Source: Ornithinicoccus hortensis (GTDB lineage: Bacteria; Actinomycetota; Actinomycetes; Actinomycetales; Dermatophilaceae). From it: DNA of 64,000 nt. Below the pieces are notes generated by a model. The model had not been told where the DNA came from. It ran no database searches and was given only the letters and a program-made list of their open reading frames with translations. The translations under genes and the position numbers were made by a program. Below, one piece after another: positions 48,494 to 64,000 of this stretch (positions are counted from its first letter, which is position 1; every line of letters starts with the position of its first letter). Location of the stretch: positions 1,736,001-1,800,000 of the forward strand of contig NZ_VFOP01000001.1 in the NCBI RefSeq assembly GCF_006716185.1, read 5' to 3'.

Positions 48494-48498
48494 TCACC

Positions 48499-48903
48499 GT
48501 GGGCTGCACGTTCTGCGCCATCGTCGCCGGTGAAGAGGCGGCGCACATCGTGCTGTCCACCGAGGACGTCGTGGCCTTCCTGGACCGGCGCCCGGTCTTC
48601 AAGGGGCACGTGCTCGTGGTGCCCCGCGAGCATGTGGTCACTCTGCCCGACCTCACGGATGCCCAGGTGCAGTCGGTGATGACCGCGGCCCGGACGGTCG
48701 CGGACGCGGTGCGCACGGCATACGGGGCCCAGGGCTCCTTCGTCGCGATCAACAACACGGTCAGCCAGTCGGTGCCGCACCTGCACGTCCACGTGGTCCC
48801 GCGGACCAAGGGGGACGGGCTGCGCGGGTTCTTCTGGCCGCGGACGAAGTATGCCGAGGGGGAGGCGGCCGAGTACGCGGACCGGCTGCGGGTGGTCCTC
48901 TGA
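48499..48903 (+). CDS. HIT family nucleotide hydrolase/transferase
   Basis: 134 residues from GTG, five bases after the oligopeptidase stop. Opens CTFCAIVAGE with a zinc-type CxxC, then FLDRRPVFKGHVLVVPREHV and the histidine triad PHLHVHVVPR. HIT proteins hydrolyse or transfer nucleotides such as AMP derivatives or diadenosine polyphosphates. Likely cotranscribed with the upstream gene. Confidence 0.92.
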   Translation: MGCTFCAIVAGEEAAHIVLSTEDVVAFLDRRPVFKGHVLVVPREHVVTLPDLTDAQVQSVMTAARTVADAVRTAYGAQGSFVAINNTVSQSVPHLHVHVVPRTKGDGLRGFFWPRTKYAEGEAAEYADRLRVVL

Positions 48904-48905
48904 CC

Positions 48906-48921
48906 GGTGGCCAGGGCCACC
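48906..48921 (+). terminator. short terminator after the HIT gene
   Basis: GGTGGC and GCCACC around a CAGG loop, followed by AAGCGTTGTT. Small but well placed three bases after the stop codon. Confidence 0.5.
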
Positions 48922-48996
48922 AAGCGTTGTTAGCCTGGCCGGATTGAACCGCCAGGGGAGCCGCACGGTGCGGCACGCGGTCGAGGAGGGGGACAC

Positions 48997-49413
48997 ATGA
49001 GTCGAGCAGCACTGGCACCGGACGCGAGTTGGCCCACGCTCAGACAGGGACACCGGGGACGGAACGTGACGACGCTGCAGGCGCTGTTGCGCTCGCACGG
49101 TTACGCACTGGACGTCGACGGGGTCTTCGGGCAGGGCACCCTGTCGAAGGTCCGTGCCTTCCAGGCCAACCGGGGTCTCGCCGTCGACGGTGTCGTCGGA
49201 CCCAACACGTGGACGGCGGCGACGCCGGCGACGGTGGCCAGGCGGGGCACGAAGGGGTGGCGGGCCACGGCGGCCAACAGCCAGGTCGGGATCGCCTCGA
49301 GCACCTTCGGCGCCAGTTCCGAGTCCGCCTGGAGGTCGCTGCAGCGCAGTCTGGGGCTCACCGCCGACGGCGTCTGCGGCCGTGAGTCGCTGCGTAGCGC
49401 GCTCCTGCGGTAG
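48997..49413 (+). CDS. peptidoglycan-binding-like protein with two repeats
   Basis: 138 residues, GAGGAGGGGG upstream. The first PG_binding_1 repeat is clear: LRQGHRGRNVTTLQALLRSHGYALDVDGVFGQGTLSKVRAFQANRGLAVDGVVGPNTW is its extent (residues ~10-68, quoted motif parts LRQGHRG, VDGVFGQGT, VDGVVGPNTW). A second, weaker repeat covers residues ~80-137 (SESAWRSLQRSLGLTADGV). No signal peptide or catalytic domain is seen, so how it reaches the wall is unclear. Confidence 0.8.
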   Translation: MSRAALAPDASWPTLRQGHRGRNVTTLQALLRSHGYALDVDGVFGQGTLSKVRAFQANRGLAVDGVVGPNTWTAATPATVARRGTKGWRATAANSQVGIASSTFGASSESAWRSLQRSLGLTADGVCGRESLRSALLR

Positions 49414-49497
49414 GGCAGCCGGGCGGTCCGGCTCCGCGACGCGCATGTCGCTTCTGGGCTAGGATCGCCGCACTGGTCGCCGGAACAGGGGAGTGAG

Positions 49498-50130
49498 ATG
49501 TCGGCAACGCCCACGACGCGCAAGGGGCTGCGGACGCGGCAGTCGATCGTCGAGGCCGGACGTGGGGTCTTTGCCCGCGACGGGTTCGTGAGCGCCCGGA
49601 TGGGCGACATCGCCGAGGCGGCGGGCCTGTCGATGGGTGGTCTGTACCGGTACTTCGCCAACAAGGAGGACGTCTTCGAGGCGGTCATCGCCGACGTCCA
49701 CGAGGGGTTGTTCCAGGCGAGCGTGTCCACCAACCACGACTTCCGTACCGAGCCCTACGAGGCTCTGCTGGAGGCGAATCGGGGCTACCTGCAGCGCTAC
49801 TACGAGTACCGCGACGTGATGCGCGCCTTCATGGAGGCGGCCCACGTCGACAAGCGCTTCCGCGACTTCTGGTGGTCGATGCGGTCGCGGCACGTCGAGC
49901 GCTTCCTGGGCGTGATGGGCAAGGTGTCGGCCGACGGGGGTGAGTCGGCCCCCGACCTGCGGCTGGCGGCGGAAGCCGTGGCCTGCATGGTGGAGCAGTC
50001 CGCCTACGTGTGGTTCGCCCAGGACGAGCTCTACGGCGCGACGGTCGACGTCGAGGACGCGACCCGGGTGGTGACCCAGATCTGGCACGGGACCTTCTTC
50101 CCAGAGAAAAAAGCGACATCACCCTCTTGA
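49498..50130 (+). CDS. TetR family transcriptional regulator
   Basis: 210 residues, GGGGAG upstream of ATG. N-terminal HTH: RTRQSIVEAGRGVFARDGFV and GDIAEAAGLSMGGLYRYFANKEDVFEAVI, residues ~10-60. The C-terminal ligand domain is helical and unlike families I know. It lies directly before the solute-binding protein gene in the same direction and may have regulated it or a lost neighbouring gene. Confidence 0.92.
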   Translation: MSATPTTRKGLRTRQSIVEAGRGVFARDGFVSARMGDIAEAAGLSMGGLYRYFANKEDVFEAVIADVHEGLFQASVSTNHDFRTEPYEALLEANRGYLQRYYEYRDVMRAFMEAAHVDKRFRDFWWSMRSRHVERFLGVMGKVSADGGESAPDLRLAAEAVACMVEQSAYVWFAQDELYGATVDVEDATRVVTQIWHGTFFPEKKATSPS

Positions 50131-50199
50131 CTTAACGCCGTTTGCTGGCGACGATCTATCAGACCGACCAATGGTGGTGACGTCTGAAGGGTTGTCCCG

Positions 50200-51012
50200 A
50201 TGGCATTTCGTGAGTGGGCTGGCGGGTTGTCCGCCCTGGCCCTCCTGGCGCTGACCGGCTGCGCCACGGGCGAGGCCGGCGCCAGTACCGGCCCGAGCGA
50301 TGAGGTAACCGTCGCGCTGATCGCCCCGTTCACCGGGTTCTCCGCCAACTACGGACCGGAGGCCAAGGCTGGCATCGAGATCGCCCTGGAGGATGCCGGC
50401 TACGCCGCGGGGGACACCGAGATCACCCTGATCACGGTGGACGAGGACGTGCTGGACCCCTCCCAGACGCTGGAGCGGGTGAAGAAGGCGGTCGAGGGCG
50501 ACGGGGCCGACGTCCTCATCGGCCCCGTGTTCGGCTCCAGCCAGCAGGCGGTCGCGCCCTACCTGTCCCAGCGCAAGCTGCCGATGTTCACCTTCCTCGG
50601 CGGTCAGGAGTCGCTGGCCGGGGAGCGCAGCGGGTTCATCTGGCCGGCGCCCGACGACCAGACCGCCCGTCCGCTCGGCACCTACGCCGGTGAGGAGCTG
50701 GGCTACGAGACGATCGCGACCCTGGGTCCGGACTACGCCTACGGCCACGACGCGATGAACGGTGCCGCGCAGGCCTTCGAGGCCACCGGGGGCACGGTGG
50801 TCCAGCAGCAGTGGGTGCCGTTGGGTACGACCGACATGTTGCAGTACGCCACGTCCCTGGACCGGGACGTCGACGCACTGGTCATGTGGCTGGTGCCCAC
50901 CGACGCCGCGGCCTTCGTCCGGGAGTACCGCAACCTGGGCATCGACATCCCGCTGCTGATGTTCCAGGGCGTCTTCGACCCCGACCCGGCGGTGACCAGG
51001 AGCGGTTCCTGA
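50200..51012 (+). pseudogene. truncated branched-chain amino acid-type ABC substrate-binding lipoprotein
   Basis: 270 codons. Signal peptide with lipobox LALTGCATG (Cys ~24) and the start of a type 1 periplasmic-binding fold (VTVALIAPFTGFSANYGPEAKAGIEIALEDAGY, DVLIGPVFGSSQQAVAPYLS). Family members are about 380-420 residues, so about a third is missing. The frame ends in TRSGS just after the join at about 50998, beyond which another frame encodes the end of an unrelated protein. Loss of the C-terminal lobe should abolish ligand binding. Confidence 0.8.
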
Positions 51013-51256: not shown

Positions 51257-51562
51257 TCAGCTCGCCACCAGCGTGGTCACCTTGGCCAGTTCGGCACCGT
51301 GTAGGTCGCGCTCCACTTCGAGGTCGTAGTCGGTCTGGATGTTGATCCAGAACCGGTCGTCGACCCCGAGCGCCTTGGACAGTCGCAGTGCGGTGTCAGT
51401 GGTGATGGTGCGCTTGCCGCGTACGATCTCGCTGATCCGGGTCTGGGGGAGTCCGGTGGCCTGGGCGAGGCGGTACTGGGTGATGCCCAGCGGCTCCAGG
51501 AACTCGGTCAGCAGGATCTCGCCGGGAGTGATCGGGTCGTGGGCTTTGGTGGTCGTGGCCAT
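51257..51562 (-). CDS. higA: HigA family antitoxin (XRE HTH)
   Basis: 101 residues, GAGGAG upstream of ATG. Opens with ITPGEILLTEFLEPLGITQYRLAQATGLPQTRISEIVRGKRTITTDTALRLSKALG, the HigA HTH (quoted here as its extent, residues ~11-66; key motif PQTRISEIVRGKR), then FWINIQTDYDLE. It binds and neutralises HigB and represses the operon. Second gene of a leftward pair, 24 bases after the toxin frame, the usual toxin-first order of higBA. Confidence 0.93.
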   Translation of the reverse strand: MATTTKAHDPITPGEILLTEFLEPLGITQYRLAQATGLPQTRISEIVRGKRTITTDTALRLSKALGVDDRFWINIQTDYDLEVERDLHGAELAKVTTLVAS

Positions 51563-51586
51563 GATCGTGGCTCCTCTCTTGCTCGG

Positions 51587-51867
51587 TCAGTGGTAGTCGG
51601 TGATCTCGACGTCAGTTGGACCGGTGTCTGTCCAACTGAAGCAGATTCGGTACTGGTCGTTGATGCGGATGGAGTGTTGTCCCGCGCGGTTGCCGACGAG
51701 TTCTCCAGACGGTTGCCGGGTGGCACTCGCAGGCTGTTCAGTTCGGAGGCCGCGTTGAGGAGGCGGAGCTTCTTCTGCGCGGCCCGCTGTAGTTCGGGTC
51801 CGAAGGCCCGAACGTGTTCGCGATTCCAGACCTTCTCGGTTTCGGTGTTCTTGAAGGACCGAATCAC
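51587..51867 (-). pseudogene. higB: HigB family toxin with a single-base frameshift
   Basis: The N-terminal half (GTG 51867; MIRSFKNTETEKVWNRE to LRVPPGNRLE) and the C-terminal half (GELVGNRAGQHSIRINDQYRICFSW to EITDYH) are in different frames. Restoring one G in the GGAG/AAC stretch at about 51703-51706 gives a normal 93-residue HigB. HigB is a ribosome-dependent mRNA endonuclease; the break would inactivate it while its antitoxin stays intact. A sequencing error is possible. The start is leaderless-like: TACGCT six bases upstream. Confidence 0.85.
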
Positions 51868-51872
51868 GACAC

Positions 51873-51914
51873 AAGCGTAACGCGCAACGATACTAACGGC
51901 AAGCGTAAGTATCG
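51873..51914 (-). promoter_or_regulatory. candidate higBA operator/promoter
   Basis: Two direct copies of AAGCGTAA (51873 and 51901) and an inverted pair CGATACT (51888) / AGTATCG (51908). On the minus strand the copy nearest higB supplies TACGCT at -10 position. This arrangement suits autorepression by HigA. Confidence 0.5.
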
Positions 51915-52355: not shown

Positions 52356-55300
52356 GTGCAGCTCGAGGAGCTCAAGCCCGGTCTGCGGGTTGAGGGGTTG
52401 ATCCCGTCCGAGGTCATCACTGTCATCGCGACGCAGTGGCATGGCACGGATGCGTTGGAGCTGACCTACAAGGATTCCTCCGGTCGTCTCGGCCAGCAGG
52501 TCGTGTTTCGCAAGGAGGAGGCGAACCTGTCGGTTGCCCAGACCGGCGGCCGCGCCTTCGACGCCGAGGCGAGTGATTTCAAGTTGGTCGCGGAAGCACA
52601 GCGCATCACGCTCGCGGGTTTGTTTGATCCGATGCTCGCGGTGGCCACGAGCGACGTGCAGCCGTTGCCGCACCAGATCCGTGCCGTGTATGGCGAGATG
52701 CTCCCGAGGACTCCGTTGCGGTTCCTGTTGGCCGATGACCCTGGTGCTGGCAAGACGATCATGGCCGGGCTCTATGTCAAGGAGTTGCTGCTGCGCGACG
52801 ACGTGAAGCAGTGCCTCATCGTCGCGCCTGGTGGTCTGGTCGAGCAGTGGCAGGACGAGCTGTTCTTCAAGTTCGGTCTCCGGTTCGACCTGCTCACCAA
52901 CCAGTTGATCGACGCGAACATCAACGTCAACGTGTTCGAGCACAGCCCGCTGCTGATCGCTCGCATGGACCAGCTCTCGCGCAACGAGGAACTCCAGGCG
53001 CAGCTCAAGGAGACCGAGTGGGATCTGATCATCATCGACGAGGCGCACCGCATGGGGGCGCACTACTTCGGCGGCAAGCTGGAGAAGACCAAGCGGTTCC
53101 AGCTCGGAGAGTTGCTGGGCGAGATCACCCGGCACCTGCTGTTGATGACCGCGACCCCGCACTCGGGCAAGGAGGAGGACTTCCAGCTCTTCCTGACGCT
53201 GCTTGATCGCGACCGATTCGAGGGCAAGCAGAGGAAGTCCGTTGACGTCTCCGGCGTCATGCGGCGCATGGTCAAGGAAGACCTGCTTACCTTCGAGGGG
53301 AAGAAGCTCTTCCCCGAGCGCATCGCGGAAACGGTGCCGTATGAGCTCACCGCGCTGGAGGAGGAGCTCTATGAGGATGTCACCCACTATGTCCGGGAGG
53401 GGATGAACCGAGCGGACAAGCTGGGTGGCAAGTGGAAGAACACCGTCGGGTTCGCGCTCACGGTCCTGCAGCGGCGCCTGGCGTCGAGCCCGGAGGCGAT
53501 CTACAAGAGCCTCGTGCGCCGCTCGGAGCGACTGGAGCGCAAGAAGCAGGAGATCCTCAACGGCACCTACACCGAATCGGAGCCGTCGGTTGACCTGAGC
53601 GAGATCGATGATGACGAGTACAACGCCGAAGAGATGGAGGAGATGGAGGAGGAACTCCTCGACGCGGCCACTGCTGCGCAGACGGTGGAGGAACTCAACG
53701 CGGAGCTCCTCGAATTGGACGACTTGATCGAGACCGCGAAGAGGGTCCGCGAGACCGGCACCGACCGCAAGTGGACGGAACTGTCGACGATCCTCCAGGA
53801 CAACGCACTGACCACGGACGCCAACGGGATGCCGCGCAAGTTCATCATCTTCACCGAGCACCGCGACACCTTGGACTACCTCGAAGGCAAGATCGGCTCG
53901 CTGCTGGGCAAGCCGGACGCGGTCAAGGCGATCCACGGCGGTGTACGCCGGGGCGAGCGTCGCCTGATCACCGAAGAGTTCACCAAGAACCGCGACGTCC
54001 AGATCCTCCTCGCCACCGACGCCGCAGGAGAGGGACTCAACCTCCAGGCCGCGCATCTCATGGTCAACTACGACCTGCCGTGGAACCCCAACCGCATCGA
54101 GCAGCGCTTCGGACGCATCCACCGCATCGGCCAGGAAGAGGTCTGCCGGCTGTGGAACCTGGTCGCCTCGAACACCCGCGAGGGTGAGGTCTTCACCCGC
54201 CTGCTGACGAAGCTCGAGCAGATGCGTGAAACTTATGGCGGCAAGGTCTTCGACGTGCTCGGGGAGGCGTTTACTGAAACGCCTCTGCGCAACCTGCTGC
54301 GTGAGGCGATCCAGTACGGCGAACGTCCCGACATCAAGGCCAAGATGCACCAGGTCGTCGACTCCTCCGTCGGCGATGGACTGAAGGACCTGCTCGATGA
54401 TCGTGCGCTCGCCTCGGAGAACCTTGCTGAGGGCGACATGCAGGCCCTGCGCGCCGCAATGGACGAGGCCCGGGCCCGCCGGCTGCAGCCCCATTACATC
54501 GAGCTCGCGTTCAAGGCAGCGTTCAGCCGGCTCGGGGGACGGATCGTGAAGCGCGAACAAGGCCGCTACGAGATCGCGAACGTGCCCCAACAGATCCGCG
54601 CCGCCAGCACCGGCCCGATCGCCACCAAGTACGACCGCGTGACGTTCGAACTCGACAAGGTCCACGCCGAGGAACACACCCGGGCCGACCTGCTTGCCCC
54701 AGGCCACCCGCTCCACGACACGGTCATGGACGAAGCCGTCCGCCAATTCGGGGACACCCTCAACCAAGGCACCGTCCTTGTGTCCTCAACCCTGGAGGAA
54801 CCCCACCTGCTGGTCGGCGTGGTCGAGGAAGTCGCCGACGCGACCGGCGAGTCCGTGTCCCGACGCTTCGGCTACGCCTACGTCGACAACTACGGCACCG
54901 TCACCCCAGCCGGGCCCGCTCCCTATCTCGACTGCGTCGCCGCGCCGGACAGCCCTGTCGTGGACGCCGTCCGAGAGCTGCCGTGGCTCGTGGATGCTGA
55001 GGACAAGGCGATGAGCTGGATCATCGCCAACCGGCTGCCCGAGTACCTGTCCGAGGTCCAGCCGCGTCGACTCGCCGAGCTGGACAAAGCACGCGCCCTG
55101 GTCGTCAAACGGCTCGAAGGAGAACGCGACCGGCTCCTCCTCGATGCCGCGGTGGCGTCGGAGAAGGAACAGGCTGGCGACAAGCCCAAGATTTCGTCGG
55201 AGAGCCTCAACCGTAAGGCCGTCGAACTCGACGTGCGGCTGCGCAAGCGGCTCGAGCTGATGGACCAGCAGCAACTCATGTCCACCAAGCCGCCCCGCAT

Positions 55301-55766
55301 CGTCACCGCAGCACTCGTACTACCCGTCGGGATGCTGGAATCGGAGCTGCCCGACACAGCGCCGATCCACGCCAAGGAGACCAAGGAGGTCGAACGCCGC
55401 GGCGTCGACCTCGTGATGGCCCGCGAACGCGAACTCGGCCGCAAGCCCGTCGAACAGGCCTTCAACAACCCCGGCTTCGACATCCTCTCCACCGACGCCA
55501 AGGGCGACACCTACCGCATCGAGGTCAAGGCCCGCATCGACGGAGCGAAGGACTTCTTCGTCACCCACAACGAAGTGATGACCGGCAAGAACGCCGTCCC
55601 GCGATACCGCCTCGCCCTCGTCCGCGTCGACCCACGCGGAGCCCAGTACGACGAAGTCCGCTACCTCGACGACCCCTTCGCAACCACCGACCTCGGCGGC
55701 TTCGACGCCACCGGCGTCCGCGGCGACTGGGCCAAGCAGTGGGCCAAGGGGAAGTTGCCATTCTGA
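52356..55766 (+). CDS. SNF2-family helicase with C-terminal DUF3883 (DrmD-like defence helicase)
   Basis: 1136 residues from GTG 52356 with AGGAGG upstream. Superfamily 2 motifs: Q-type VQPLPHQIRAVYGEM, Walker A DDPGAGKTIMAGLY (~128-140), DEAH in LIIIDEAHRMG (~226-236), motif III TATPHSGKEEDF, and motifs V-VI LLATDAAGEGLNLQAAHLM and QRFGRIHRIGQ (~582). A coiled-coil acidic insert (~430-470) splits the lobes. The C-terminal DUF3883 (GFDILSTDAKGDTYRIEVKAR, ~1040-1100) resembles a nuclease-like fold. Such helicases accompany DUF1156 methylases in DISARM class 1-like and related anti-phage systems; one is encoded at 62956. Codon use is less GC3-biased than in the flanking chromosome. Confidence 0.88.
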   Translation: MQLEELKPGLRVEGLIPSEVITVIATQWHGTDALELTYKDSSGRLGQQVVFRKEEANLSVAQTGGRAFDAEASDFKLVAEAQRITLAGLFDPMLAVATSDVQPLPHQIRAVYGEMLPRTPLRFLLADDPGAGKTIMAGLYVKELLLRDDVKQCLIVAPGGLVEQWQDELFFKFGLRFDLLTNQLIDANINVNVFEHSPLLIARMDQLSRNEELQAQLKETEWDLIIIDEAHRMGAHYFGGKLEKTKRFQLGELLGEITRHLLLMTATPHSGKEEDFQLFLTLLDRDRFEGKQRKSVDVSGVMRRMVKEDLLTFEGKKLFPERIAETVPYELTALEEELYEDVTHYVREGMNRADKLGGKWKNTVGFALTVLQRRLASSPEAIYKSLVRRSERLERKKQEILNGTYTESEPSVDLSEIDDDEYNAEEMEEMEEELLDAATAAQTVEELNAELLELDDLIETAKRVRETGTDRKWTELSTILQDNALTTDANGMPRKFIIFTEHRDTLDYLEGKIGSLLGKPDAVKAIHGGVRRGERRLITEEFTKNRDVQILLATDAAGEGLNLQAAHLMVNYDLPWNPNRIEQRFGRIHRIGQEEVCRLWNLVASNTREGEVFTRLLTKLEQMRETYGGKVFDVLGEAFTETPLRNLLREAIQYGERPDIKAKMHQVVDSSVGDGLKDLLDDRALASENLAEGDMQALRAAMDEARARRLQPHYIELAFKAAFSRLGGRIVKREQGRYEIANVPQQIRAASTGPIATKYDRVTFELDKVHAEEHTRADLLAPGHPLHDTVMDEAVRQFGDTLNQGTVLVSSTLEEPHLLVGVVEEVADATGESVSRRFGYAYVDNYGTVTPAGPAPYLDCVAAPDSPVVDAVRELPWLVDAEDKAMSWIIANRLPEYLSEVQPRRLAELDKARALVVKRLEGERDRLLLDAAVASEKEQAGDKPKISSESLNRKAVELDVRLRKRLELMDQQQLMSTKPPRIVTAALVLPVGMLESELPDTAPIHAKETKEVERRGVDLVMARERELGRKPVEQAFNNPGFDILSTDAKGDTYRIEVKARIDGAKDFFVTHNEVMTGKNAVPRYRLALVRVDPRGAQYDEVRYLDDPFATTDLGGFDATGVRGDWAKQWAKGKLPF

Positions 55767-56584
55767 TGGCCGAGCGAGTCCCGGAGAGGGAGGATGAGCG
55801 TCACGCACGTGAGCTCCTCGAGCGCCAATTGGGCGTTCAGCTGGAGCTCACCGACCTGGGCGGGAAGAGGATTGCGGACTACCGCTTCGTGCGACCCGAC
55901 GGCCGTGTCGGTGTCGTCGAGGTCACTTCCGTAACTAACCCCGATCGCAAAGTGAACGACGTCGCGTGGAGTGGTGAGCTTGGACCGTTCCCCGTGGACG
56001 ATCTCCGCAGGAGTTGGATGGTATTCCTGCCCGAGAGCGCCCGTGCGAAAGGTGTTCGATCTCGGATCCACTCAGCTTTGAAACTCCTTGAGGCCGAAGG
56101 GAAGGACAGTTTCGACCGCCACAGGCCCCCGGTTGATTGGACGTCATCCGGCGCTCGAATCGCATGGTCGCCAGGGGGGCGCGCTCTCGCTGCTGCTGAG
56201 GCGGACCGCGCGAACGCGTACGACGAAGGAGATGGGGCTGTCCATCTCTCGCTGGCCACACACGGCAGCTTTGTGGCGAAAGGCAGCGATGCGTCCGTGA
56301 CCTTGATTTTCGGCGAGCTCGCCGCCAAGCCGGACAACTACGACAAGCTCCGCGAAGCGACAGGCGACGAAAAGCATCTATTCGTCTGGCTCGATGGTCA
56401 GACGGACTACGAGATCTCCCGCCCGCTGATGGACGACCCTGCGCAGCAGTACGAGCACTTCCGGCTGCCGACAGGCGACCCCGACGTCGAGCCGGTCGTA
56501 GACGTTCTGTGGATCGTCCATCGCGGATCCATGCGTGGATGGTTCTGGTCGAGAGGCTCCGGATGGAGCTCGGTCGGCGATTGA
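55766..56584 (+). CDS. hypothetical protein with nuclease-like N-terminus, coupled to the defence helicase
   Basis: 272 residues; ATG overlaps the helicase stop by one base (TGATG), so the two are translated together. N-terminal EREDERHARELLERQLG then DYRFVRPDGRVGVVEVTSV: an acidic residue followed by E-V-T on a predicted strand, the layout of degenerate PD-(D/E)XK folds, with Thr in place of Lys. The rest has no clear match; it includes VTLIFGELAAKPDNYDKLREA and KHLFVWLDG, seen in uncharacterised actinobacterial proteins. Function unknown; a nuclease or DNA-end sensor role is a guess from fold hints and context. Confidence 0.6.
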   Translation: MAERVPEREDERHARELLERQLGVQLELTDLGGKRIADYRFVRPDGRVGVVEVTSVTNPDRKVNDVAWSGELGPFPVDDLRRSWMVFLPESARAKGVRSRIHSALKLLEAEGKDSFDRHRPPVDWTSSGARIAWSPGGRALAAAEADRANAYDEGDGAVHLSLATHGSFVAKGSDASVTLIFGELAAKPDNYDKLREATGDEKHLFVWLDGQTDYEISRPLMDDPAQQYEHFRLPTGDPDVEPVVDVLWIVHRGSMRGWFWSRGSGWSSVGD

Positions 56585-56621
56585 TCGCGCGCCTGCGGTG
56601 TGGCCTGCCCGGCTCGGAGCC

Positions 56622-57167
56622 CTACTCGTGTTCCAACGGCACGTCGGCGATGACGAACGCGATGAACGTCTCCACGGTGGCCAGCATGCCTATCGGGTTC
56701 ACGCAGCACCAGTCCGAGGCCATGTCGTTGGGAAGCTCCGCATACTTCCCGTCGAATCCGTTCGGGGTCACCGCAACCATTGCTGCCACGAACTCCGCGA
56801 CCCACTGCTGGTGGCCGTCCGGAGCGCTGGAGGCCCAGCCGGTCGTGCCGAGTTCGTTGAGCAGGTCGTTCAGCAGGTGCCCCTTGAGCTCGCCTTCGAT
56901 GGCGACCCCGCGCTGGACCAAGGCAGCCTTGATCGCGACCTCACAGGTGTGGTGGGCGGCAAAGATGATCGGCCGCGTCAACGGTTCGTCCGTATGGGCC
57001 GCGGTGCAGAGGATCCTCAGGGCGCGTGCATGCTGGTCCAGCATCCCCAGCCACCCCCCGTTCTCCTCGTCGCCCTCAAGGAAGGAACAGTGGCCGCCGC
57101 CGGGGTGGTCGGACTGGTCATCCCGGCGAAACGCGATTCTGTCGATGTCCGGGAACTGTGACGTCAT
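56622..57167 (-). CDS. HEPN-like helical protein, originally downstream of the SIR2 gene
   Basis: 181 residues. A central helix pair PIIFAAHHTCEVAIKAALVQRG and LKGHLLNDLLNELG resembles HEPN-domain proteins, which are often RNA-cleaving toxins or their regulators. The usual Rx4-6H motif is not evident, so catalytic activity is doubtful. ATG 57167 overlaps a TGA that ends the ancestral SIR2 frame (ATGA), showing it was the second gene of that operon before the IS1380 insertion. It converges on the nuclease-like gene with a 37-base gap. Confidence 0.55.
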   Translation of the reverse strand: MTSQFPDIDRIAFRRDDQSDHPGGGHCSFLEGDEENGGWLGMLDQHARALRILCTAAHTDEPLTRPIIFAAHHTCEVAIKAALVQRGVAIEGELKGHLLNDLLNELGTTGWASSAPDGHQQWVAEFVAAMVAVTPNGFDGKYAELPNDMASDWCCVNPIGMLATVETFIAFVIADVPLEHE

Positions 57168-57220
57168 GGACTGCCCAACGTCGTGGTCACTTCGGACATT
57201 CCGTCGGGCGCTGGCTCTAG
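57164..57220 (-). pseudogene. severed 3' tail of the SIR2-family gene
   Basis: Read leftward from the CTAG at 57217-57220, 18 sense codons (LEPAPDGMSEVTTTLGSP) and a TGA continue the SIR2 frame that breaks off at 58881-58884 on the other side of the IS. The TGA overlaps the HEPN-like ATG. Confidence 0.75.
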
Positions 57221-57377
57221 CCTCGGCCTTTCATGGGGGTCTGGATCGGCTGCGGATTCTTGGGGTGTGCGGGGCGGAGGGCTCCCGGCTGGGGTCTGGG
57301 CAGGCCAGTGTCCCGGGTTGTCGTACCGGGTGGACGTTTTCCGAGGTCTTTCGGGTGGTAGGGGCAGGGGGCTGGGT

Positions 57378-58760
57378 TCAAGTGAACGCGGTGCGGATCC
57401 TGCCCCAGCCGGTGGCGATCGCGGTGGCCCAGGCCCAGGTCTTATCGATACGTAGCCGCACTTGTCGGGCGCCGTGGGTGATCCGGGCGGCGACGTGCAG
57501 GACGGCGTAGCGGAACGCGGCGATCTCGCACCGGGCCAGGATGGGGTGGTCGGTGAAGGCGATGAGCTTGGTCCAGGCGATCAGGTCGGTGGCCATGAGG
57601 ACGACCTGTAACCAGGCAGCGTTCTCGTTCCAAGCCCGGCAGGGCAGGTTGCGCAGCCCGGTGGCCTTGGCCTGGCGGATCCGGTCCTCGACGCGGGCGT
57701 GCTGGCGGTGGCGTAGCTCCAGCCCGGCGAGCTGCCCGGGCACCACGCCAGGGCCGGTGTCGGTCAGGAACGCGGTGATCCGCATCCCGTCGGCATCGGT
57801 GAACGTCAGCTGCGCGCCGGGGTGGGGCCGTTCTTTGCGCAGGATCAACCGAGACCCATCCGGCCAGGGCGACAGGTCAATATTGTCAGTGACCTCAGCG
57901 ACCCAGGCGCCCTCACGCATCCCGTCGGTCTCGACCGCCGGGTACCAGGCACCCTCGGGAATGGCATCGACAATGTCCTTGACCCGCAGGTCAACAGGGA
58001 ACCCGAAAGAGAACCCGACCCCGGCCTGGCGGCACGCGTCAGCGAAGGCGTGGGTCGCCCCTGCCGAGTCCGAGCGGGCCAGCACCCGCGGGCCGCCGGG
58101 GTCATCTGGTCGGGGCCGGGCCTGGGTCGGCAGGGCCGCCAACGCCTGCTCCAGGACGGTGATGTGGTCGGCGGCGGTGTTCGACCCGGCGTTCCCTGCC
58201 CGCAGCAACCCGGCCAACGCCTCCCCGCCGGCGATCTCCGGGCGGTCCAGGAACGCTAGCAGCGGATGGAACCCGAACGTGCGTTTCCACGTGGCGGCAG
58301 CGTTCTCCTTCTCCGAGTGGGCAACCGTGATCGTGGCATCGAAGTCGATCGCCAACTCCTGGGCCAGGTCCGGGCCTGCCCCGGCAGCCCACGCTCGTTC
58401 TCGTGCGTCTGCCCGAGCCGCCTGCACCAAGCCCAGGTGATCGGCATCGACCCGGTCCAGCACCCGCCATGCGGTCGGCATCGAGGCCACCGGCCCGAAG
58501 ACCTCTTCCCGGTCGCTTAGTACGCCGATACCGGTGATCGCCTGCGCACCGTCAGCGACCGCGACCGCCAGGTCGGTCAGCACCCGACCTGGGGCATGCA
58601 CCCAGGGGCCGGAGTAGGTATCGGCCAGTGCCCTGTCCAGGGCGCTGACCAGACCTGTGTACTCAGCCAGTTCCCGCAACATTCCCAGACCGGCGTGGGA
58701 CACCACGCCCTCCCCGTCAGCGCTGACCTTGACCCGCGGAAACGACCCGTTACGCTTCAC
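57378..58760 (-). CDS. IS1380-family transposase (copy A)
   Basis: 460 residues from GTG 58760, aligned with the start used by copy B. DDE-type (group 1) features: LAIDFDATITVAHSEKENAA with the first Asp, VLARSDSAGATHAFADA with the second, and a C-terminal region LPCRAWNENAAWLQVVLMATDLIAW holding the Glu (the Y-(2)-R-(3)-E-like IS1380 signature). Complete and apparently functional. Roughly nine in ten residues match copy B. Confidence 0.92.
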   Translation of the reverse strand: MKRNGSFPRVKVSADGEGVVSHAGLGMLRELAEYTGLVSALDRALADTYSGPWVHAPGRVLTDLAVAVADGAQAITGIGVLSDREEVFGPVASMPTAWRVLDRVDADHLGLVQAARADARERAWAAGAGPDLAQELAIDFDATITVAHSEKENAAATWKRTFGFHPLLAFLDRPEIAGGEALAGLLRAGNAGSNTAADHITVLEQALAALPTQARPRPDDPGGPRVLARSDSAGATHAFADACRQAGVGFSFGFPVDLRVKDIVDAIPEGAWYPAVETDGMREGAWVAEVTDNIDLSPWPDGSRLILRKERPHPGAQLTFTDADGMRITAFLTDTGPGVVPGQLAGLELRHRQHARVEDRIRQAKATGLRNLPCRAWNENAAWLQVVLMATDLIAWTKLIAFTDHPILARCEIAAFRYAVLHVAARITHGARQVRLRIDKTWAWATAIATGWGRIRTAFT

Positions 58761-58765
58761 CTTGG

Positions 58766-58831
58766 AAGTGCTCCTCGAACTGCGACGACGTGACTCTAGA
58801 CAAGCCACATCATCCCAGTTCAGGAGCACTT
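58766..58831. repeat. subterminal inverted repeat of IS1380 copy A
   Basis: AAGTGCTCCTCGAACTG at 58766 and CAGTTCAGGAGCACTT at 58816 are complementary except for one extra base, 33 bases apart, directly upstream of the transposase start. The same structure occurs in copy B, so it is a conserved part of the element. Confidence 0.75.
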
Positions 58832-60024
58832 TCCACGTCAACCCAAGCCCGCGCCACCGCCCCCGCGTGAAACGCCGAGGCTAGTTCCAAATAGGCGCTG
58901 TCCATGAGGCTGAAGCCCAGGAACAGCACGTGACTCGTCATCAGCAACCCCTGGACCAGCCCGTACAGCGGCTTGCCGTCTTCTGCGTGCCGCACGTAGT
59001 CATCCGTAGTCAGGACGACACCACGTGGTTTACCCACTGTCCCGTGAAGTTTGAGCAGCCACGGGCCGCTGGTCGTCGCCCACTGATGCGCCATGACACG
59101 CAGGTCCTCGCCGTGAGTCAACTTCATCGCTGCCTCTAGGGCTGTGTCAAAGTTCGTGGTGACGTTCTGACGGAGCCGCAGGCTGGCGATGAGTCCATGA
59201 CTCAACGCGTGATGTTCGGTCGCGAAGAGTTGCTCGAGCAGCCTGGCGTATCTGTCCTCGCCCAGTGCGTCCTTTGCCCGTTGCGCAGCCGCCTTGTAGG
59301 CCACTTCGTCGGACCCTTTAGGGAGATCTTGTCCCTCCGCCTGCTGTAAGAGACTGTGCACCAACTGCCCCCAGCTCGGCATCCCGAGCGGGACGCTCGC
59401 GCCAGCACCGACGAACACCGACAGTTCACCGCGGCCGGCAAGTTCCCCGAGGCGATCCGCATGATCTAGCAGTTCCTTGCTGACGCTCCATGTCCGCTCC
59501 GTCGCTCCCTGCACGGCCGCGTAGTCCCGCGGATCCCTCATCACCAGCGCGACGTCAACGCCGAGCCGTTCGGCGCACGTCACCAGCGCTGGCACCACCG
59601 CTCCGACCACGGCACCACGGCGGTGCGCGAAGACTCCGTGCCCAGTGCCGGGCAGCGGCATCGCCACGAGACGCCGGGTACGGCCTGCGTGAGCACCCTG
59701 CGGCAGACGGGGAACCAGACGCTCGAGTCCCGAAACGACCGCCTCGGCAAGCTGCTCCACATCCTCCGGCGAGACCGTGTCGACGAGTTCGTATGCCGTC
59801 GGGTCCGGTTCGCGCTCCTGCGAACCTCGGCGGCGAGGCGCCAGGCCTGCGCCCTCGGGGAGCGGTTCCCACGCGTCCTGCGGTTGCCGCGTGGTGTCGA
59901 ACAGCCGGAACCACCAGCTGCTCACGGCCTTGTCCTGGTCGCAGGGGATCAGCACCGCGTCCCAGGACAGCTTGGTCAGGTCACCATGCACGACGAACAG
60001 ATGGCCTTGCGTCTCCGCGGTCAT
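58810..60024 (-). CDS. macro-like/SIR2-family defence protein, 3' end replaced by IS sequence
   Basis: Currently 404 residues; residues 1-380 are native and the last 24 are read from the IS1380 end. N-terminal region GHLFVVHGDLTKLSWDAVLIPCD and VAMPLPGTGHGVFAHRRG resembles macro-type ADP-ribose-binding folds. The SIR2 domain follows: SVFVGAGASVPLGMPSWGQL, QNVTTNFDTALEAAM, WLLKLHGTVGKP and HVLFLGFSLMDSAYLEL. SIR2 proteins in defence islands cleave NAD on infection. The ancestral protein would be 398 residues and overlap the HEPN-like gene. It diverges from the PD-(D/E)XK gene with a 79-base shared promoter region (CACTCT six bases before its ATG). Confidence 0.75.
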   Translation of the reverse strand: MTAETQGHLFVVHGDLTKLSWDAVLIPCDQDKAVSSWWFRLFDTTRQPQDAWEPLPEGAGLAPRRRGSQEREPDPTAYELVDTVSPEDVEQLAEAVVSGLERLVPRLPQGAHAGRTRRLVAMPLPGTGHGVFAHRRGAVVGAVVPALVTCAERLGVDVALVMRDPRDYAAVQGATERTWSVSKELLDHADRLGELAGRGELSVFVGAGASVPLGMPSWGQLVHSLLQQAEGQDLPKGSDEVAYKAAAQRAKDALGEDRYARLLEQLFATEHHALSHGLIASLRLRQNVTTNFDTALEAAMKLTHGEDLRVMAHQWATTSGPWLLKLHGTVGKPRGVVLTTDDYVRHAEDGKPLYGLVQGLLMTSHVLFLGFSLMDSAYLELASAFHAGAVARAWVDVESAPELG

Positions 60025-60103
60025 GAGGTCAGAGTGGCAGGCCTTTCAGGATGGCGCGCGGCGGCATGGCCGACCAAGAATCGTCGGCGCTATCCTGGCC
60101 GGC

Positions 60104-61279
60104 GTGGCCCCCCTTGCGAGTTCCGTCGAGCAGATGGTCACTGCGCTCGTACCGACCCTGTCTCGGAGTCTGGCTGAGCAGTTCAACGTCTTCCGCGTGA
60201 TGCACCACGGGACCCATGAGAAGCAACTGTCCAACGTGTTCGCCTGGCTCCTGACGCCAGGAGCGACACACGAACTGGGCGATGCGTTCCAGCGGCTTTT
60301 CCTCGAGCACGTCAACCAGTTCCTCGACGAGACAGCACAGCTCCCCACAACCGGCTATCGCGTGATCCAGGAGGTCAACACCTCCGTGGCAGAAGAGGGC
60401 GCGGACATCGCGGACATCGTCCTCACGAACGACCGTGCGAGCGTGGTCGTGGAGAACTACGAGGTCTCCGACGGTCACGGCCACGGCTATCACCGGTACC
60501 TTGCGCACGGCGCCCTGGGCGGGAGGCAGAGTGTCGTGGTTCTGCTGTGCGTCAGACGCGAGAGCCAACTCCAGCGAGGAGGTTGGGAGAACGCTGCCGT
60601 CCTCACCTATGCACAACTCCTTGAGAACCTGCATGCGCACATCGCCGGCGACCAGGCCTGGCAGCGTGCCCACCCCAGACAGAACTTCTTCATCAGTGAA
60701 TTCGTCCAACACTTCACGGAAGGCCCAACGGCTGTGAGCACCGGTGACCAGATCGCATTCATCAAAGCCATGTGCGAGACGGGCGAGAGTGTTCGATACG
60801 GTCACCGCCCGCAGGACGCCGCCGGGCAGGAGTTCGCGAGCCTCGTGGCGCAGCATGCCCAGAGGCAGTTCGAGGATGGCCGCAGGACCCTTGCCACGGT
60901 GAAACGGACCTTGAGAAGTTACGCCGAGCACACGCTGACCGGGCAGGTCAACGAAGCGGTGGCGGCGGGGCATATCACCACGGTCTCGACGAACTTCCGC
61001 GGCCTGTGGGAGTGGGCCGTTGCCCTTGAGCGGCCAGTTCCACACCCGCGCATCCATTTCGAGTTCGGCCCGACGGCCGTGGCGGAGAACGCTGTTGTCG
61101 CTGAACCGATCGCTGACCCCGACTACTCGAAGATCTTCGTGAGTCGCCAAGGACCTGACTTAGGCGCGATTGACAAGATTCTCCAGACGGACGTAGGACT
61201 CGACGACGTCCTCGCAGGCCTAAGCCCTGATGACGTCCGACTCCGCGACGATCTGCTCGCGATCACCAGGCTGCCCTAG
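60104..61279 (+). CDS. PD-(D/E)XK nuclease family protein
   Basis: 391 residues from GTG 60104; TATCCT at 60091-60096 ends seven bases upstream, a leaderless start. The pattern is that of the PD-(D/E)XK family in phage-defence loci: HGTHEKQLSNVFAWLLTPGATHELGDAF, ADIADIVLTNDRASVVVENYEVSDGHGHGYHRYL. The catalytic Lys position reads Tyr (E-N-Y for E-x-K), a variant that may use a different residue or be non-catalytic. The C-terminal half is helical. The stop TAG is part of the CTAG flanking IS1380 copy B; it is native, since it survives in-silico excision. Confidence 0.75.
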   Translation: MAPLASSVEQMVTALVPTLSRSLAEQFNVFRVMHHGTHEKQLSNVFAWLLTPGATHELGDAFQRLFLEHVNQFLDETAQLPTTGYRVIQEVNTSVAEEGADIADIVLTNDRASVVVENYEVSDGHGHGYHRYLAHGALGGRQSVVVLLCVRRESQLQRGGWENAAVLTYAQLLENLHAHIAGDQAWQRAHPRQNFFISEFVQHFTEGPTAVSTGDQIAFIKAMCETGESVRYGHRPQDAAGQEFASLVAQHAQRQFEDGRRTLATVKRTLRSYAEHTLTGQVNEAVAAGHITTVSTNFRGLWEWAVALERPVPHPRIHFEFGPTAVAENAVVAEPIADPDYSKIFVSRQGPDLGAIDKILQTDVGLDDVLAGLSPDDVRLRDDLLAITRLP

Positions 61280-61433
61280 CCTCGGTCTTTCATGCGGCTG
61301 CTGACGGTGCCCGTTCTGGCCGGTCGTGAGGCGGGTCTGGCCTGATTCTGGTGGGTGGGCATGGGTGGTGCCCGGCTGTCGCGCCGGGTGTGCGGTTTCC
61401 GAGGTCCTTGGTCGTCGGGACGGGGGTCTGCGT

Positions 61434-62819
61434 TCAGGTGAACGCGGTGCGGATCCGGCCCCAGCCGGTGGCGATCGCGGTGGCCCAGGCCCACGTCCTG
61501 TCGAGGCGCAGCCGGACCTGTCGGGCGCCGTGGGTGATGCGGGCGGCGACGTGCAGGACGCGGTAGCGGAACGCGGCGACCTCGCACCTGGCCAGGGTCG
61601 GGTGGTCGGCGAAGGCGATGAGCTTGGTCCGGGCGATCAGGTCGGTGGCCATCAGAACCACCTCGAGCCATGCCGCGTTCTCGTTCCACGCCCGGCAGGG
61701 CAGGTTGCGCAGGCCGGTGTCCTTGGCCTGGCGGATCCGGTCCTCGACCCGGGCGTGCTGGCGGTGGCGCAGCTCCAGCCCGGCGATCTGCCCGGGGACG
61801 ACGCCGGGGGCGGTGTCGGTCAGGAACGCGGTGATCCGCATCCCGTCGACATCGGTGAAGGTCAGCTGCGCGCCGGGGTGGGGACGTTCCTTGCGCAGGA
61901 TCAGCCGGGAGCCCGCAGGCCAGGCCGACAGGTCCACGTTGCCGGTGACCTCGGCCACCCAGGCCCCGTCCCGCAGGTCGCCGTCGGTCTGGATGGCCGG
62001 GTGCCAGCAGTTCTCGGGGACGGCATCGACGATGTCCTGTACGCGCAGGTCGACGGGGAAGCCGAAGGAGAACCCGACCCCGGCCTTGCGGCACGCGGCG
62101 GCGAACGCGTGCGTGGCACCGGCGGAGTCGGACCGGGCCAGCACCCGCGGGCCCTCGGCATCACCCGGACGGGGTCGGGCGTGCTCGGGCAGCGCGGCCA
62201 GCGCCATGTCCAGCACCGCGATGTGGTCGGCGGCGGTGTTGGACCCGGCGTTGCCCTTGCGCAACAACCCGGCCAGCGCCTCCCCGCCGGCGATCTGTGG
62301 GCGGTCCAGGAAGGCCAGCAGCGGATGGAAGCCGAAGGTGCGCTTCCAGGTCGCGGCCGCGTTCTCCTTCTCCGAGTGCGCGATGGTGATCGTGGCGTCG
62401 AAGTCGATCGCCAGCTCCTGGGAAAGGTCCGGCCCCGCCCCGGCCGCCCACGCCCGCTCCCGCGCGAGCGACCGTGCCGCCCGCACCGCGCCCAGGTGGT
62501 CGGCATCGACCCGGTCCAGGACCCGCCACGCGGTCGGCATGGAGGCCACCGGCCCGAAGATCCCTTCCCGGTCGCCCAGCACCTCGATCCCGGTGATCGC
62601 ATCCGCCCCGTCGGCCACGGCGACCGCGACATCGGTCAGCACCCGGCCCGGGGCATGGATCCACGGCCCACGGTAGGTGTCGGCCAACGCCCCGTCCAGG
62701 GCCTCGACCAGGCCGGTGTCCTCGGCCACCTCCCGCAACATCCCCAGCCCGGCGTGCGACACGACGCCCTCACCATCGGCGCTGACCTTCACCCGTCGGA
62801 CCGACCCGTTACGCTTCAC
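61434..62819 (-). CDS. IS1380-family transposase (copy B)
   Basis: 461 residues from GTG 62819. Same DDE regions as copy A (LAIDFDATITIAHSEKENAA, VLARSDSAGATHAFAAA, NENAAWLEVVLMATDLIA). The extra residue relative to copy A lies in TDGDLRDGAW. Complete. Differences from copy A are mostly synonymous or conservative, so both have been under selection since they separated. Confidence 0.92.
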   Translation of the reverse strand: MKRNGSVRRVKVSADGEGVVSHAGLGMLREVAEDTGLVEALDGALADTYRGPWIHAPGRVLTDVAVAVADGADAITGIEVLGDREGIFGPVASMPTAWRVLDRVDADHLGAVRAARSLARERAWAAGAGPDLSQELAIDFDATITIAHSEKENAAATWKRTFGFHPLLAFLDRPQIAGGEALAGLLRKGNAGSNTAADHIAVLDMALAALPEHARPRPGDAEGPRVLARSDSAGATHAFAAACRKAGVGFSFGFPVDLRVQDIVDAVPENCWHPAIQTDGDLRDGAWVAEVTGNVDLSAWPAGSRLILRKERPHPGAQLTFTDVDGMRITAFLTDTAPGVVPGQIAGLELRHRQHARVEDRIRQAKDTGLRNLPCRAWNENAAWLEVVLMATDLIARTKLIAFADHPTLARCEVAAFRYRVLHVAARITHGARQVRLRLDRTWAWATAIATGWGRIRTAFT

Positions 62820-62824
62820 CTGAG

Positions 62825-62891
62825 AAGTGCTCCTTGAACTGTGACGACGTGAACTCTTGACAAGTCACATCATCCCAGTTCAGGAGCACTT
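62825..62891. repeat. subterminal inverted repeat of IS1380 copy B
   Basis: AAGTGCTCCTTGAACTG (62825) and CAGTTCAGGAGCACTT (62876), same spacing as in copy A, with the intervening bases partly diverged. An inner GTGAC/GTCAC pair adds to a possible hairpin. Confidence 0.75.
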
Positions 62892-62942
62892 TTCACGTCA
62901 ACTCAAGGACCGTGCCGCACCACCCACGTGAAACACCGAGGC

Positions 62943-62948
62943 TAGGGT
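62943..62948 (+). promoter_or_regulatory. -10-like element of the methylase gene, formed at the IS/CTAG junction
   Basis: TAGGGT uses the last three bases of the CTAG duplication and ends seven bases before GTG 62956. It would exist in the IS-free ancestor as well, so the element kept its -10 but replaced everything upstream. Confidence 0.5.
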
Positions 62949-62955
62949 GGTGCGC

Positions 62956-64000
62956 GTGGGAGAACTGAAGCGCAAGCTGATCGAGGTCGCCCTCCCGCTG
63001 GAGGCGATCAACAAGGAGTCGGCGAGGGAGAACTACATCTACAGGGGAAACCCATCGTCGGTGCACAAGTGGTGGGCGCAGCGCCCGCTCGCGGCAGCCC
63101 GTGCCGTGCTGTTCGCCCAGCTCGTCGATGACCCGTCCGCGCGGCCGGACGAGTTCCCCACCGAGGAGGACCAGCGCCGCGAGCGCGAGCGCCTCCACGG
63201 ACTGATCGAGCGCCTCGTCAGGTGGGAGAACGTCCGCGACGAGAAACTCCTCGCCGAAGCCCACGCCGAGATCCTCAAGTCCACCGACGGCAACCCGCCG
63301 CCGATCCTCGACCCGTTCGCCGGCGGCGGCACCATCCCGCTCGAAGCGCAGCGCCTCGGCCTCGAAGCCCACGCCTCCGACCTCAACCCGGTCGCGGTAC
63401 TCATCAACAAGGCACTCATCGAGATCCCGCCGAAGTTCCGCGACCAAGCCCCTTCCTATCCTGACCTCGCCGACTCCGAGATCCGCGACTGGAAGGGCGC
63501 TGAAGGGCTCGCAGCCGATGTCCGCGCTTACGGCGGCTGGATGCGTGACGAAGCCGAGAAGTGGACCGGTCATCTCTACCCGAAGGCAACTCTCGACGAT
63601 GGCACCCAAGCGAACGTCATCGCTTGGATCTGGGCTCGTACCGTGACCTGCCCCAACCCTGCCTGCGGCATCGAAATGCCACTGGTCCGCTCCTGGTGGC
63701 TGGGCAAGAAGAGGGGCAAGGAGGCGTACGTCGTCCCCACCGTCGTGGGTGATCCGGACCACCCCTCGGGCCAGCGAGTGCAGTTCGACATCGGGCACGA
63801 CAAGGCTGGTTCACCGACCAAGGAGACCGACGGCACCGTCGGCCGAAATGGTGCCTTCTGCATCGCCTGCGAGACCGCGGTCGACTTGAAGTACGTCCGA
63901 GCTGAGGGTCGCGACGGGCGTACGGGGCAAACACTGATGGCCGTGGTCGCCGAAGGCAACCGCTCCCGCGCATATGTGGCGCCAGATCAGGTCCACTCTT
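62956..64000 (+). CDS. DUF1156 (COG1743-type) adenine-specific DNA methylase, N-terminal part (partial)
   Basis: 348 codons, open to the end of the window. N-terminal DUF1156: KRKLIEVALPLEAINKESA and SSVHKWWAQRPLAAARAVLFAQLVDDPS. SAM-binding motif I is LDPFAGGGTIPLEAQRLG, followed by ASDLNPVAVLINKALIEIP. Cys pairs TCPNPACG and FCIACE suggest the family's zinc ribbon. The DPPY-type catalytic motif should lie beyond 64 kb. Such methylases protect self DNA in DISARM class 1-like and helicase-methylase-ATPase systems. In-frame GTGs at 62947 and 62950 are alternative starts. Confidence 0.88.
   Translation, partial: MGELKRKLIEVALPLEAINKESARENYIYRGNPSSVHKWWAQRPLAAARAVLFAQLVDDPSARPDEFPTEEDQRRERERLHGLIERLVRWENVRDEKLLAEAHAEILKSTDGNPPPILDPFAGGGTIPLEAQRLGLEAHASDLNPVAVLINKALIEIPPKFRDQAPSYPDLADSEIRDWKGAEGLAADVRAYGGWMRDEAEKWTGHLYPKATLDDGTQANVIAWIWARTVTCPNPACGIEMPLVRSWWLGKKRGKEAYVVPTVVGDPDHPSGQRVQFDIGHDKAGSPTKETDGTVGRNGAFCIACETAVDLKYVRAEGRDGRTGQTLMAVVAEGNRSRAYVAPDQVHS

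Follow-up and report, generated by a model that had tools for sequence, protein, structure and literature searches.

A very probable Hma anti-phage operon in Ornithinicoccus hortensis that carries likely defence genes in two internal slots

Introduction

In the portions of the published record used here, Hma was named as a three-gene operon (PMC8565338) and has been renamed Type-1 BR in an account that places PD-(D/E)XK, HNH, HEPN, and TOPRIM nucleases inside these loci or close to them, counts GmrSD-type HNH enzymes among the effectors of bacteriophage exclusion (BREX) and BR systems, and refers to experimental work on the HmaA helicase (PMC12839542). Genes inside such operons have also been described: a 2024 preprint (Payne et al.) used 'guilt by embedding' to find Hma-embedded candidates (HEC) and PDC genes (PMC12111858, PMC11411939, PMC12988326). 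Here we describe a locus in a 64,000-nucleotide stretch of Ornithinicoccus hortensis DNA, the whole of which is called the window (bases 1,736,001-1,800,000 of a 3.94-Mb single-contig genome). It is very probably an Hma (Type-1 BREX-related) anti-phage operon that adjoins an integrase gene and carries likely defence genes in two of its intergenic slots. The locus crosses the right edge of the window, and the next 30 kb (L003) were added; an L003 position equals the window position minus 60,000.

Results

The three core genes

All three genes that define membership of Hma, or Type-1 BR, are present at the locus.

52356..55766, plus strand: hmaA, SNF2 helicase with a C-terminal NOV_C/DUF3883 PD-(D/E)XK-type domain (PADLOC, Pfam, motifs)
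about 62956..65724 (window cut at 64000; L003:5724), plus strand: hmaB, DUF1156 adenine methylase (PADLOC HmaB, DUF1156)
69419-72778 (L003:9419-12778), plus strand: hmaC, HEPN_Swt1 and DUF499 ATPase (PADLOC HmaC, Pfam), starting 5.4 kb past the window edge

Proteins were scanned with PADLOC (n = 19) and Pfam (n = 29) models; genes left of 51257 and other open reading frames (ORFs) lay outside these scans. Each core protein covered nearly the whole of its PADLOC Hma profile. HmaA scored 1320.9 bits over residues 5-1114, against 424.2 bits at best for DrmD and 350.4 for BrxH, while HmaB scored 1033.4 bits over residues 8-913 and HmaC 878.4 bits over residues 172-1118. The hmaA product matched Pfam Helicase_C and NOV_C (E 4.6e-17) and carries the motifs PGAGKT, DEAH, and IEVK (in GDTYRIEVK). 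Judged by these features, its C-terminal PD-(D/E)XK domain would be of the kind that defines a Type-1 BR helicase, and the protein is likely the primary effector. The GTG start of hmaA at 52356 is preceded by AGGAGG; no sigma-70-like promoter was found upstream of the gene. HmaB has DPPY at residue 519. HmaC, which found no match in viral contigs, begins with a HEPN_Swt1 domain (Pfam E 7.8e-30) and contains RNTWAH and NFGGGKT. Because the strict P-loop G....GK[ST] is absent from HmaC and from all 72 relative segments compared, NFGGGKT seems to be this family's own P-loop form.

The original prediction, made from the window alone, had placed a DUF3883 helicase at 52356 and a DUF1156 methylase at 62956, and both identifications hold. 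Of the two settings it offered for the pair, a DISARM class 1-like system or a helicase-methylase-ATPase locus, the second is the one that matched, as HmaA, HmaB, and HmaC profiles.

Core order and cargo in relatives

An HmaB match at E 1e-60 was present in 29 of 396 phylum genomes, the home genome included. For comparison of loci we used the best 80 of 379 HmaB relatives in named genomes, among which L049/L050, L078/L092, and L110/L113 look like near duplicates, such that counts are not independent. All three core genes occurred in 66 of the 80 loci, in line as A-B-C in 65 of these; the sole exception (L044) has an inverted hmaA. The hmaA-hmaB (A-B) gap exceeded 300 bp in 42 of 66 measurable loci and the hmaB-hmaC (B-C) gap in 29 of 73. 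Where both gaps were measured, 47 of 65 loci held at least one cargo ORF and 19 had cargo in both slots. Of the eight nearest relatives (HmaA 74-84% identical), six have at most 244 bp between hmaA and hmaB and two hold a different gene there; the B-C slot contained a DUF262 gene in two and was empty in six. Thus, the core is kept while the cargo changes.

The cargo of relatives matched defence models, including AriA-like ATPases, HEC-01, TmtA, RloB, GmrSD_N, Schlafen, and AbiEii. There were 137 cargo ORFs, of which the 117 with at least 150 aa were scanned and 20 shorter ones were dropped. Within the first 25 of 40 Pfam families from 67 A-B ORFs were AAA_21 (8), AAA_15 (8), HATPase_c_4 (5), RloB (4), GmrSD_N (3), SLFN_AlbA_2 (3), SIR2_2 (1), and STALD (1). 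The first 25 of 30 families from 50 B-C ORFs included AAA_21, AAA_15, and GmrSD_N (6 each), DUF4276 (4), AbiEii (3), and TIR_2 (1). One locus, from a Verrucomicrobia metagenome-assembled genome (L073), has a Thoeris set of ThsB, SIR2-STALD ThsA, and ThsB between hmaA and hmaB (L073:5510-8174), which provides one precedent for a SIR2 effector in the A-B slot.

In another genome of the class (G150:C1:3307766-3312074), hmaB is matched in two pieces about 1.5 kb apart, consistent with an insertion.

Genes between hmaA and hmaB

The A-B slot of the window holds four genes or ORFs and two insertion sequence (IS) elements.

55766..56584, plus strand: uncharacterised embedded gene, 272 aa, TGATG overlap with hmaA, no Pfam or NCBIfam match
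56622..57167, minus strand: orphan ORF, 181 aa, Pfam HEPN E 0.036 (14.7 bits against a cut-off of 22)
57217..58884, minus strand: IS1380-like copy 1, within the SIR2 gene, transposase frame 57378-58841 (DDE_Tnp_1_4 E 1.7e-58)
58885..60024, minus strand: macro-SIR2 gene, 3'-truncated by IS copy 1 (SIR2_2 E 6.9e-19, macro E 1.3e-7)
60134..61279, alternative start GTG 60104, plus strand: PDDEXK_4 gene, PADLOC candidate PDC-S26 (PDDEXK_4 E 5.5e-9)
61276..62945, minus strand: IS1380-like copy 2, between the PDDEXK gene and hmaB, transposase 61434-62819

Coding potential was assessed with a home-made codon-usage score; core genes belonged to its training set, so that their own scores are no test. 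Scores were positive for the cargo genes, lowest for the 55766 gene (0.083), and negative for the three antisense ORFs tested. Relatives of the 55766 protein, the orphan ORF, and the PDDEXK_4 protein were present in none of the 80 Hma loci at E <=0.01, and the SIR2 protein matched one (L073, SIR2 domain only).

The hmaA stop codon and the ATG of the 55766 gene share one base (TGATG), and the two genes are probably co-translated, judging from this arrangement. Other than a single PADLOC match (E 0.067), the protein resembled no model in the libraries scanned. Its structure model, from a single sequence, had a mean pLDDT (predicted local distance difference test) of 43, too poor for fold comparison, and the best match to solved structures was no better than E 0.66. 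At E <=0.001, relatives were found in 3 of 395 other phylum genomes and 2 of 393 other class genomes (the samples overlap), along with one on an Arthrobacter plasmid among the plasmid records searched; viral contigs gave no match. Six relatives come from stretches that show no Hma core gene, although two of these are on contigs shorter than 5 kb. The six aligned members, at 25-30% identity, share among others D30, D38, E52, and V53. PD-(D/E)XK enzymes carry an E-x-K motif, and at its place this family reads E-V-[T/I]. The D...EVT pattern points to a PD-(D/E)XK-like fold in what is a rare, unclassified family.

The SIR2 gene retains the motifs GAGAS, TTNFD, and KLHG. Its N-terminus is a macro domain: a profile of roughly the first 185 residues, built from the window protein and five relatives, matched macroH2A1.1 (E 1.3e-7). 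Against solved structures, the whole macro-SIR2 profile matched 7uxt (6.2e-29), the SIR2-like domain protein 8k98 (5.4e-28), ThsA (6lhx; 1e-26), and DSR2 H171A (8wyb; 3.9e-26). Its best PADLOC match was the Thoeris ThsA SIR2 model (76.1 bits), with PDC-S25 matching weakly (E 1.2e-7). No STALD match was found in the window protein, and three relatives with their C-terminus likewise show SIR2_2 only; no TIR match occurred among the locus and right-flank proteins scanned. Six relatives of 494-549 residues keep the N-terminal domain, the SIR2 domain, and then 118-144 further residues. IS copy 1 ends inside the window gene at 58884, leaving about 378 residues, such that those 118-144 C-terminal residues are missing. 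The protein was probably an effector originally and, because its gene is truncated by IS copy 1, is probably inactive now. All six relatives come from 19-kb stretches without an Hma core gene. Plasmids yielded matches in 97 records, none covering 80% of the query, and viral contigs one weak partial match.

A fusion of macro and SIR2 domains is probably not new, because additional domains, of which Macro is given as an example, are marked in a published tree of SIR2-like proteins (PMC12700824). The portions of the literature on macro and SIR2 domains used here describe TM-macro ThsA and macrodomain-linked sirtuins (SirTM), and no single-gene macro-SIR2 anti-phage effector was found in them.

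Both IS elements, which we take to belong to the IS1380 family, are bounded by CTAG at both ends (13 CTAG in the 64 kb). A composite transposon of two fresh copies was considered and is not favoured, as the copies are 85% identical. The other matches in the genome are a patchy one of 72-74% (947922-949230) and one of 38 bases. The former, near 948 kb, is perhaps a third, diverged IS1380-like copy.

The far end of IS copy 1 lies 49 bases from the start of the orphan ORF, which has a codon score of 0.385. HEPN RNases have their Rx4-6H motif in a C-terminal helix; the orphan ORF contains three Rx4-6H strings, at residues 14, 51, and 65 of 181, and its HEPN score is below threshold. Among HEC and PDC models it matched PDC-S19 only (E 0.056). 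The only strong match in 396 phylum genomes was itself; eight weak matches (E 0.001-0.009 over 38-103 residues) included three with an internal stop, and no convincing relative was found in 395 other phylum genomes, 72,556 plasmid records, or the viral-contig scan. We also considered SIR2 and HEPN as one split gene and rejected this, since the orphan ORF compared with the six SIR2 relatives that keep their C-terminus gave a best BLAST E of 1.7.

The PDDEXK_4 match is above the Pfam cut-off, with PDC-S26 at E 1.2e-13 in PADLOC. ENK is usual at the E-x-K place of this family, where the window protein reads ENY. No match was found in viral contigs or plasmid records, in eight relatives (five of the genus), or among solved structures at E 1. 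The divergent SIR2 and PDDEXK genes are separated by 79 bp from GTG 60104 or 109 bp from ATG 60134. The gap has no sigma-70-like site, an absence of little weight in an actinobacterium.

Genes between hmaB and hmaC, and flanks

To the right of hmaB, the B-C slot and the region after hmaC contain further genes.

65721-67559 (L003:5721-7559), plus strand: HEC-07-like coiled-coil gene, 612 aa (HEC-07 E 3.1e-18, weak match)
67570-69417 (L003:7570-9417), plus strand: GmrSD-type DUF262 gene, 615 aa (GmrSD_N E 2.5e-28, HHIFP motif)
72803-73423 (L003:12803-13423), plus strand: small unclassified gene, 206 aa, directly after hmaC, no confident family
73511-74686 (L003:13511-14686), minus strand: tyrosine integrase (Phage_integrase E 4.4e-18)

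The ATG of the HEC-07-like gene overlaps the hmaB stop (ATGA). Compared with solved structures, the family matched mainly coiled coils; a structure model of the L062 protein (5 sequences, mean pLDDT 45) was too poor for fold comparison. Relatives were present in 5 of the 80 Hma loci (E <=0.01): in the B-C slot in L062, directly after hmaC in L058, L077, and L096, and further downstream in L060. The protein, which ends in VGYIGxHL, recurs with Hma in actinobacteria.

The DUF262 protein is probably a GmrSD-type nuclease. GmrSD_N was matched above its cut-off, and DGQQR, HHxFP, and NKT were invariant in all six aligned sequences; GmrSD_C was not matched in Pfam. The family profile matched the protein of PDB 7p9k (E 2.6e-5), which we take to be BrxU. 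Relatives scoring above 60 bits occurred in 9 of the 80 loci.

The 206-aa gene after hmaC carries RDRFAH (Rx4H), and the 80 loci contained no relative of it at E 0.01. To the right of the integrase are genes for a metallophosphoesterase, a DUF5677 protein, and a Fic/DOC protein (L003:15582-17185, L004:2757-3989). On the left, a HigB/HigA-like toxin-antitoxin pair (51257-51874, minus strand; HTH_3 E 4.9e-13, HigB-like E 6.6e-4, sub-threshold) precedes hmaA. Near the island's left side is a gene for a lipoprotein of 270 aa (50200-51012, plus strand), which by eye resembles a substrate-binding protein. It is perhaps shortened at its 3' end, and 10 other family genomes gave no relative of it at E 1e-30. 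GC content stays mostly at 60-70% between window positions 51000 and about 85000, versus 68-71% for 48000-51000. No tRNA gene was found in the window, L003, or L004.

Discussion

Proposed function

On the basis of their families, HmaB would methylate adenine at a self motif, while HmaC, a DUF499 AAA+ ATPase, would scan for invader DNA that is unmarked, its Swt1-type HEPN domain serving as a possible last-resort RNase. HmaA would translocate on unmarked DNA and cut it via its C-terminal PD-(D/E)XK-type nuclease. The GmrSD-type nuclease would be expected to cut modified DNA that is spared by the methylation-based core. We think it most likely that the passengers act as separate layers that can be exchanged, and not as subunits. 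Hma operons with embedded defence genes are an already published kind of arrangement, to which this locus adds a member and not a new kind.

Several points weigh against reading the locus as a working Hma operon with embedded defence genes. The activities and the division of labour are read from protein families. In NCBIfam, no Hma-type core model was matched above its cut-off, with DrmD at 377.3 of 610 bits and the anti-phage equivalogs for DUF1156 and DUF499 at 112.1 of 1000 and 155.6 of 1200, respectively. Both candidate nucleases of the A-B slot may be inactive or variant enzymes, the 55766 protein with T and the PDDEXK_4 protein with Y at the expected catalytic lysine. Because relatives of the A-B cargo are absent from the 80 loci except for the L073 SIR2, this cargo is tied to defence by position and domains, not by recurrence. 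Cargo ORFs in relatives were called by the home-made codon score, and fractions from the survey are rough, as they come from the best 80 of 379 relatives with near duplicates among them. Finally, no att repeat or empty site was found that would mark the limits of the island: repeats flanking it were 13-14-base matches only, and the left-flank gene had no relative in the family genomes searched.

Alternative explanations

HmaA does match DrmD, at up to 424.2 bits in PADLOC and 377.3 in NCBIfam, as would be expected if the locus were a DISARM class 1-like system of DrmD helicase, DrmMI methylase, and accessory genes. The same protein scores 1320.9 bits as HmaA, however, and DrmD stays below its NCBIfam cut-off of 610. 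The methylase is of the HmaB/DUF1156 type, hmaC follows downstream, and no separate DrmA, DrmB (DUF1998), or DrmC (PLD) was found among the proteins scanned, a set that excludes genes left of 51257. We regard DISARM as highly improbable. The embedded genes could instead be dedicated parts of one enlarged complex, with the 55766 and PDDEXK_4 proteins as extra nucleases under the control of the Hma core and macro-SIR2/HEPN as a guard that acts when the core fails. In favour of this are the TGATG overlap of the 55766 gene with hmaA and the ATGA overlap between hmaB and the HEC-07-like gene, both of which point to co-translation, the divergent arrangement of the neighbouring SIR2 and PDDEXK genes, and the recurrence of HEC-07-like genes in five of the 80 Hma loci. 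This would nonetheless leave unexplained why relatives with a 74-84% identical HmaA carry other cargo, and why the 55766, orphan, and PDDEXK_4 families have no member in the 80 loci at E 0.01. Moreover, six macro-SIR2 and six 55766 relatives (two on the short contigs) occur without Hma core genes, and the SIR2 gene is truncated. A single complex is therefore unlikely.

The two IS1380-like elements, one inside the SIR2 gene and one between the PDDEXK gene and hmaB, raise the question of decay, in which insertions broke the operon and the whole locus now lacks a defence function. Copy 2 could cut hmaB off from the hmaA transcript. Against this, the core genes are near full length relative to their profiles and keep their key motifs, and the genome has only two near-full IS copies, apart from the patchy 72-74% match and the one of 38 bases. 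Loss of function of the whole locus is thus conceivable, though we consider it doubtful. An operon whose core is kept, with exchangeable passengers of which one is probably dead, remains our favoured reading.

The original prediction proves largely real, with the cassette consisting of IS-damaged passengers in a known, published kind of arrangement. The one-base overlap behind the helicase is there, and the rightward PD-(D/E)XK gene, ending at 61279, is supported by an above-cut-off PDDEXK_4 match. The description of the 55766 protein as nuclease-like was not confirmed: its support is a D...E-V-[T/I] pattern in six aligned sequences, with no family match. Of the proposed leftward SIR2 and HEPN operon, the SIR2 gene stands, but it is broken, 1.67 kb of IS lie between the two, and HEPN is sub-threshold. 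Likewise, a shared 79-base promoter region agrees with the divergent gap if translation starts at GTG 60104, but not with a recognisable sigma-70-like match. The outline of a restriction-modification-like core with layered defence genes survives; the abortive-infection layer proposed for SIR2/HEPN is doubtful, given the IS-truncated SIR2 gene and the weak HEPN match. That no described system has this gene set may hold for the exact set, not for the kind. Against the refuting conditions set with the prediction, the outcome is mixed. Beyond 64 kb, where more defence genes were anticipated, defence-type genes do occur, the DNA there holding two more cargo genes, hmaC, the 206-aa gene, and the integrase gene. 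Relatives of the cassette genes did not emerge from the 80 Hma loci, the exception being a single Thoeris SIR2 in the corresponding slot.

Significance

The locus offers a clear case of a restriction-like core as a carrier of other defence genes. Its useful leads lie in those passengers that have no family name, namely the 55766 protein with its relatives at 25-30% identity and macro-SIR2 with its six relatives. A bolder and improbable proposal is that these represent two defence families outside the libraries used: an E-V-T PD-(D/E)XK-like enzyme that would work with the Hma helicase, and a single-gene sirtuin that would be gated through its macro domain by ADP-ribose-like signals. If true, intact stand-alone macro-SIR2 genes in other actinobacteria would constitute a new class of anti-phage effector.

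Comparison with known systems

With DISARM class 1 the locus shares a related SNF2 helicase and a methylase; it differs in having HmaC, and separate DrmA, DrmB, or DrmC genes were not found in the parts scanned. Thoeris ThsA (SIR2-STALD) has a SIR2 domain in common with the window protein, which instead has an N-terminal macro domain and no STALD match, and no TIR gene was found among the proteins scanned. Resemblance to Type-1 BR (PMC12839542) extends to a DUF499 ATPase with an N-terminal HEPN domain, a DUF1156 N6-methylase, a helicase with a C-terminal PD-(D/E)XK domain, putatively active here, and auxiliary nucleases in or near the locus. Neither 'SIR2' nor 'sirtuin' occurs in the main text of that account, whereas a SIR2 gene is present here. 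Hma as defined in PADLOC (PMC8565338) is a three-gene operon, in contrast to the present locus with its additional genes in both the A-B and the B-C slot, yet the hmaA-hmaB-hmaC order and the near-full-length profile matches agree. In comparison with published HEC and PDC genes, none of the HEC or PDC models matched the 55766 protein and the SIR2 part matched PDC-S25 weakly, while the HEC-05-, HEC-07-, and PDC-S26-like genes found here follow the same pattern of defence genes lying between hma genes.

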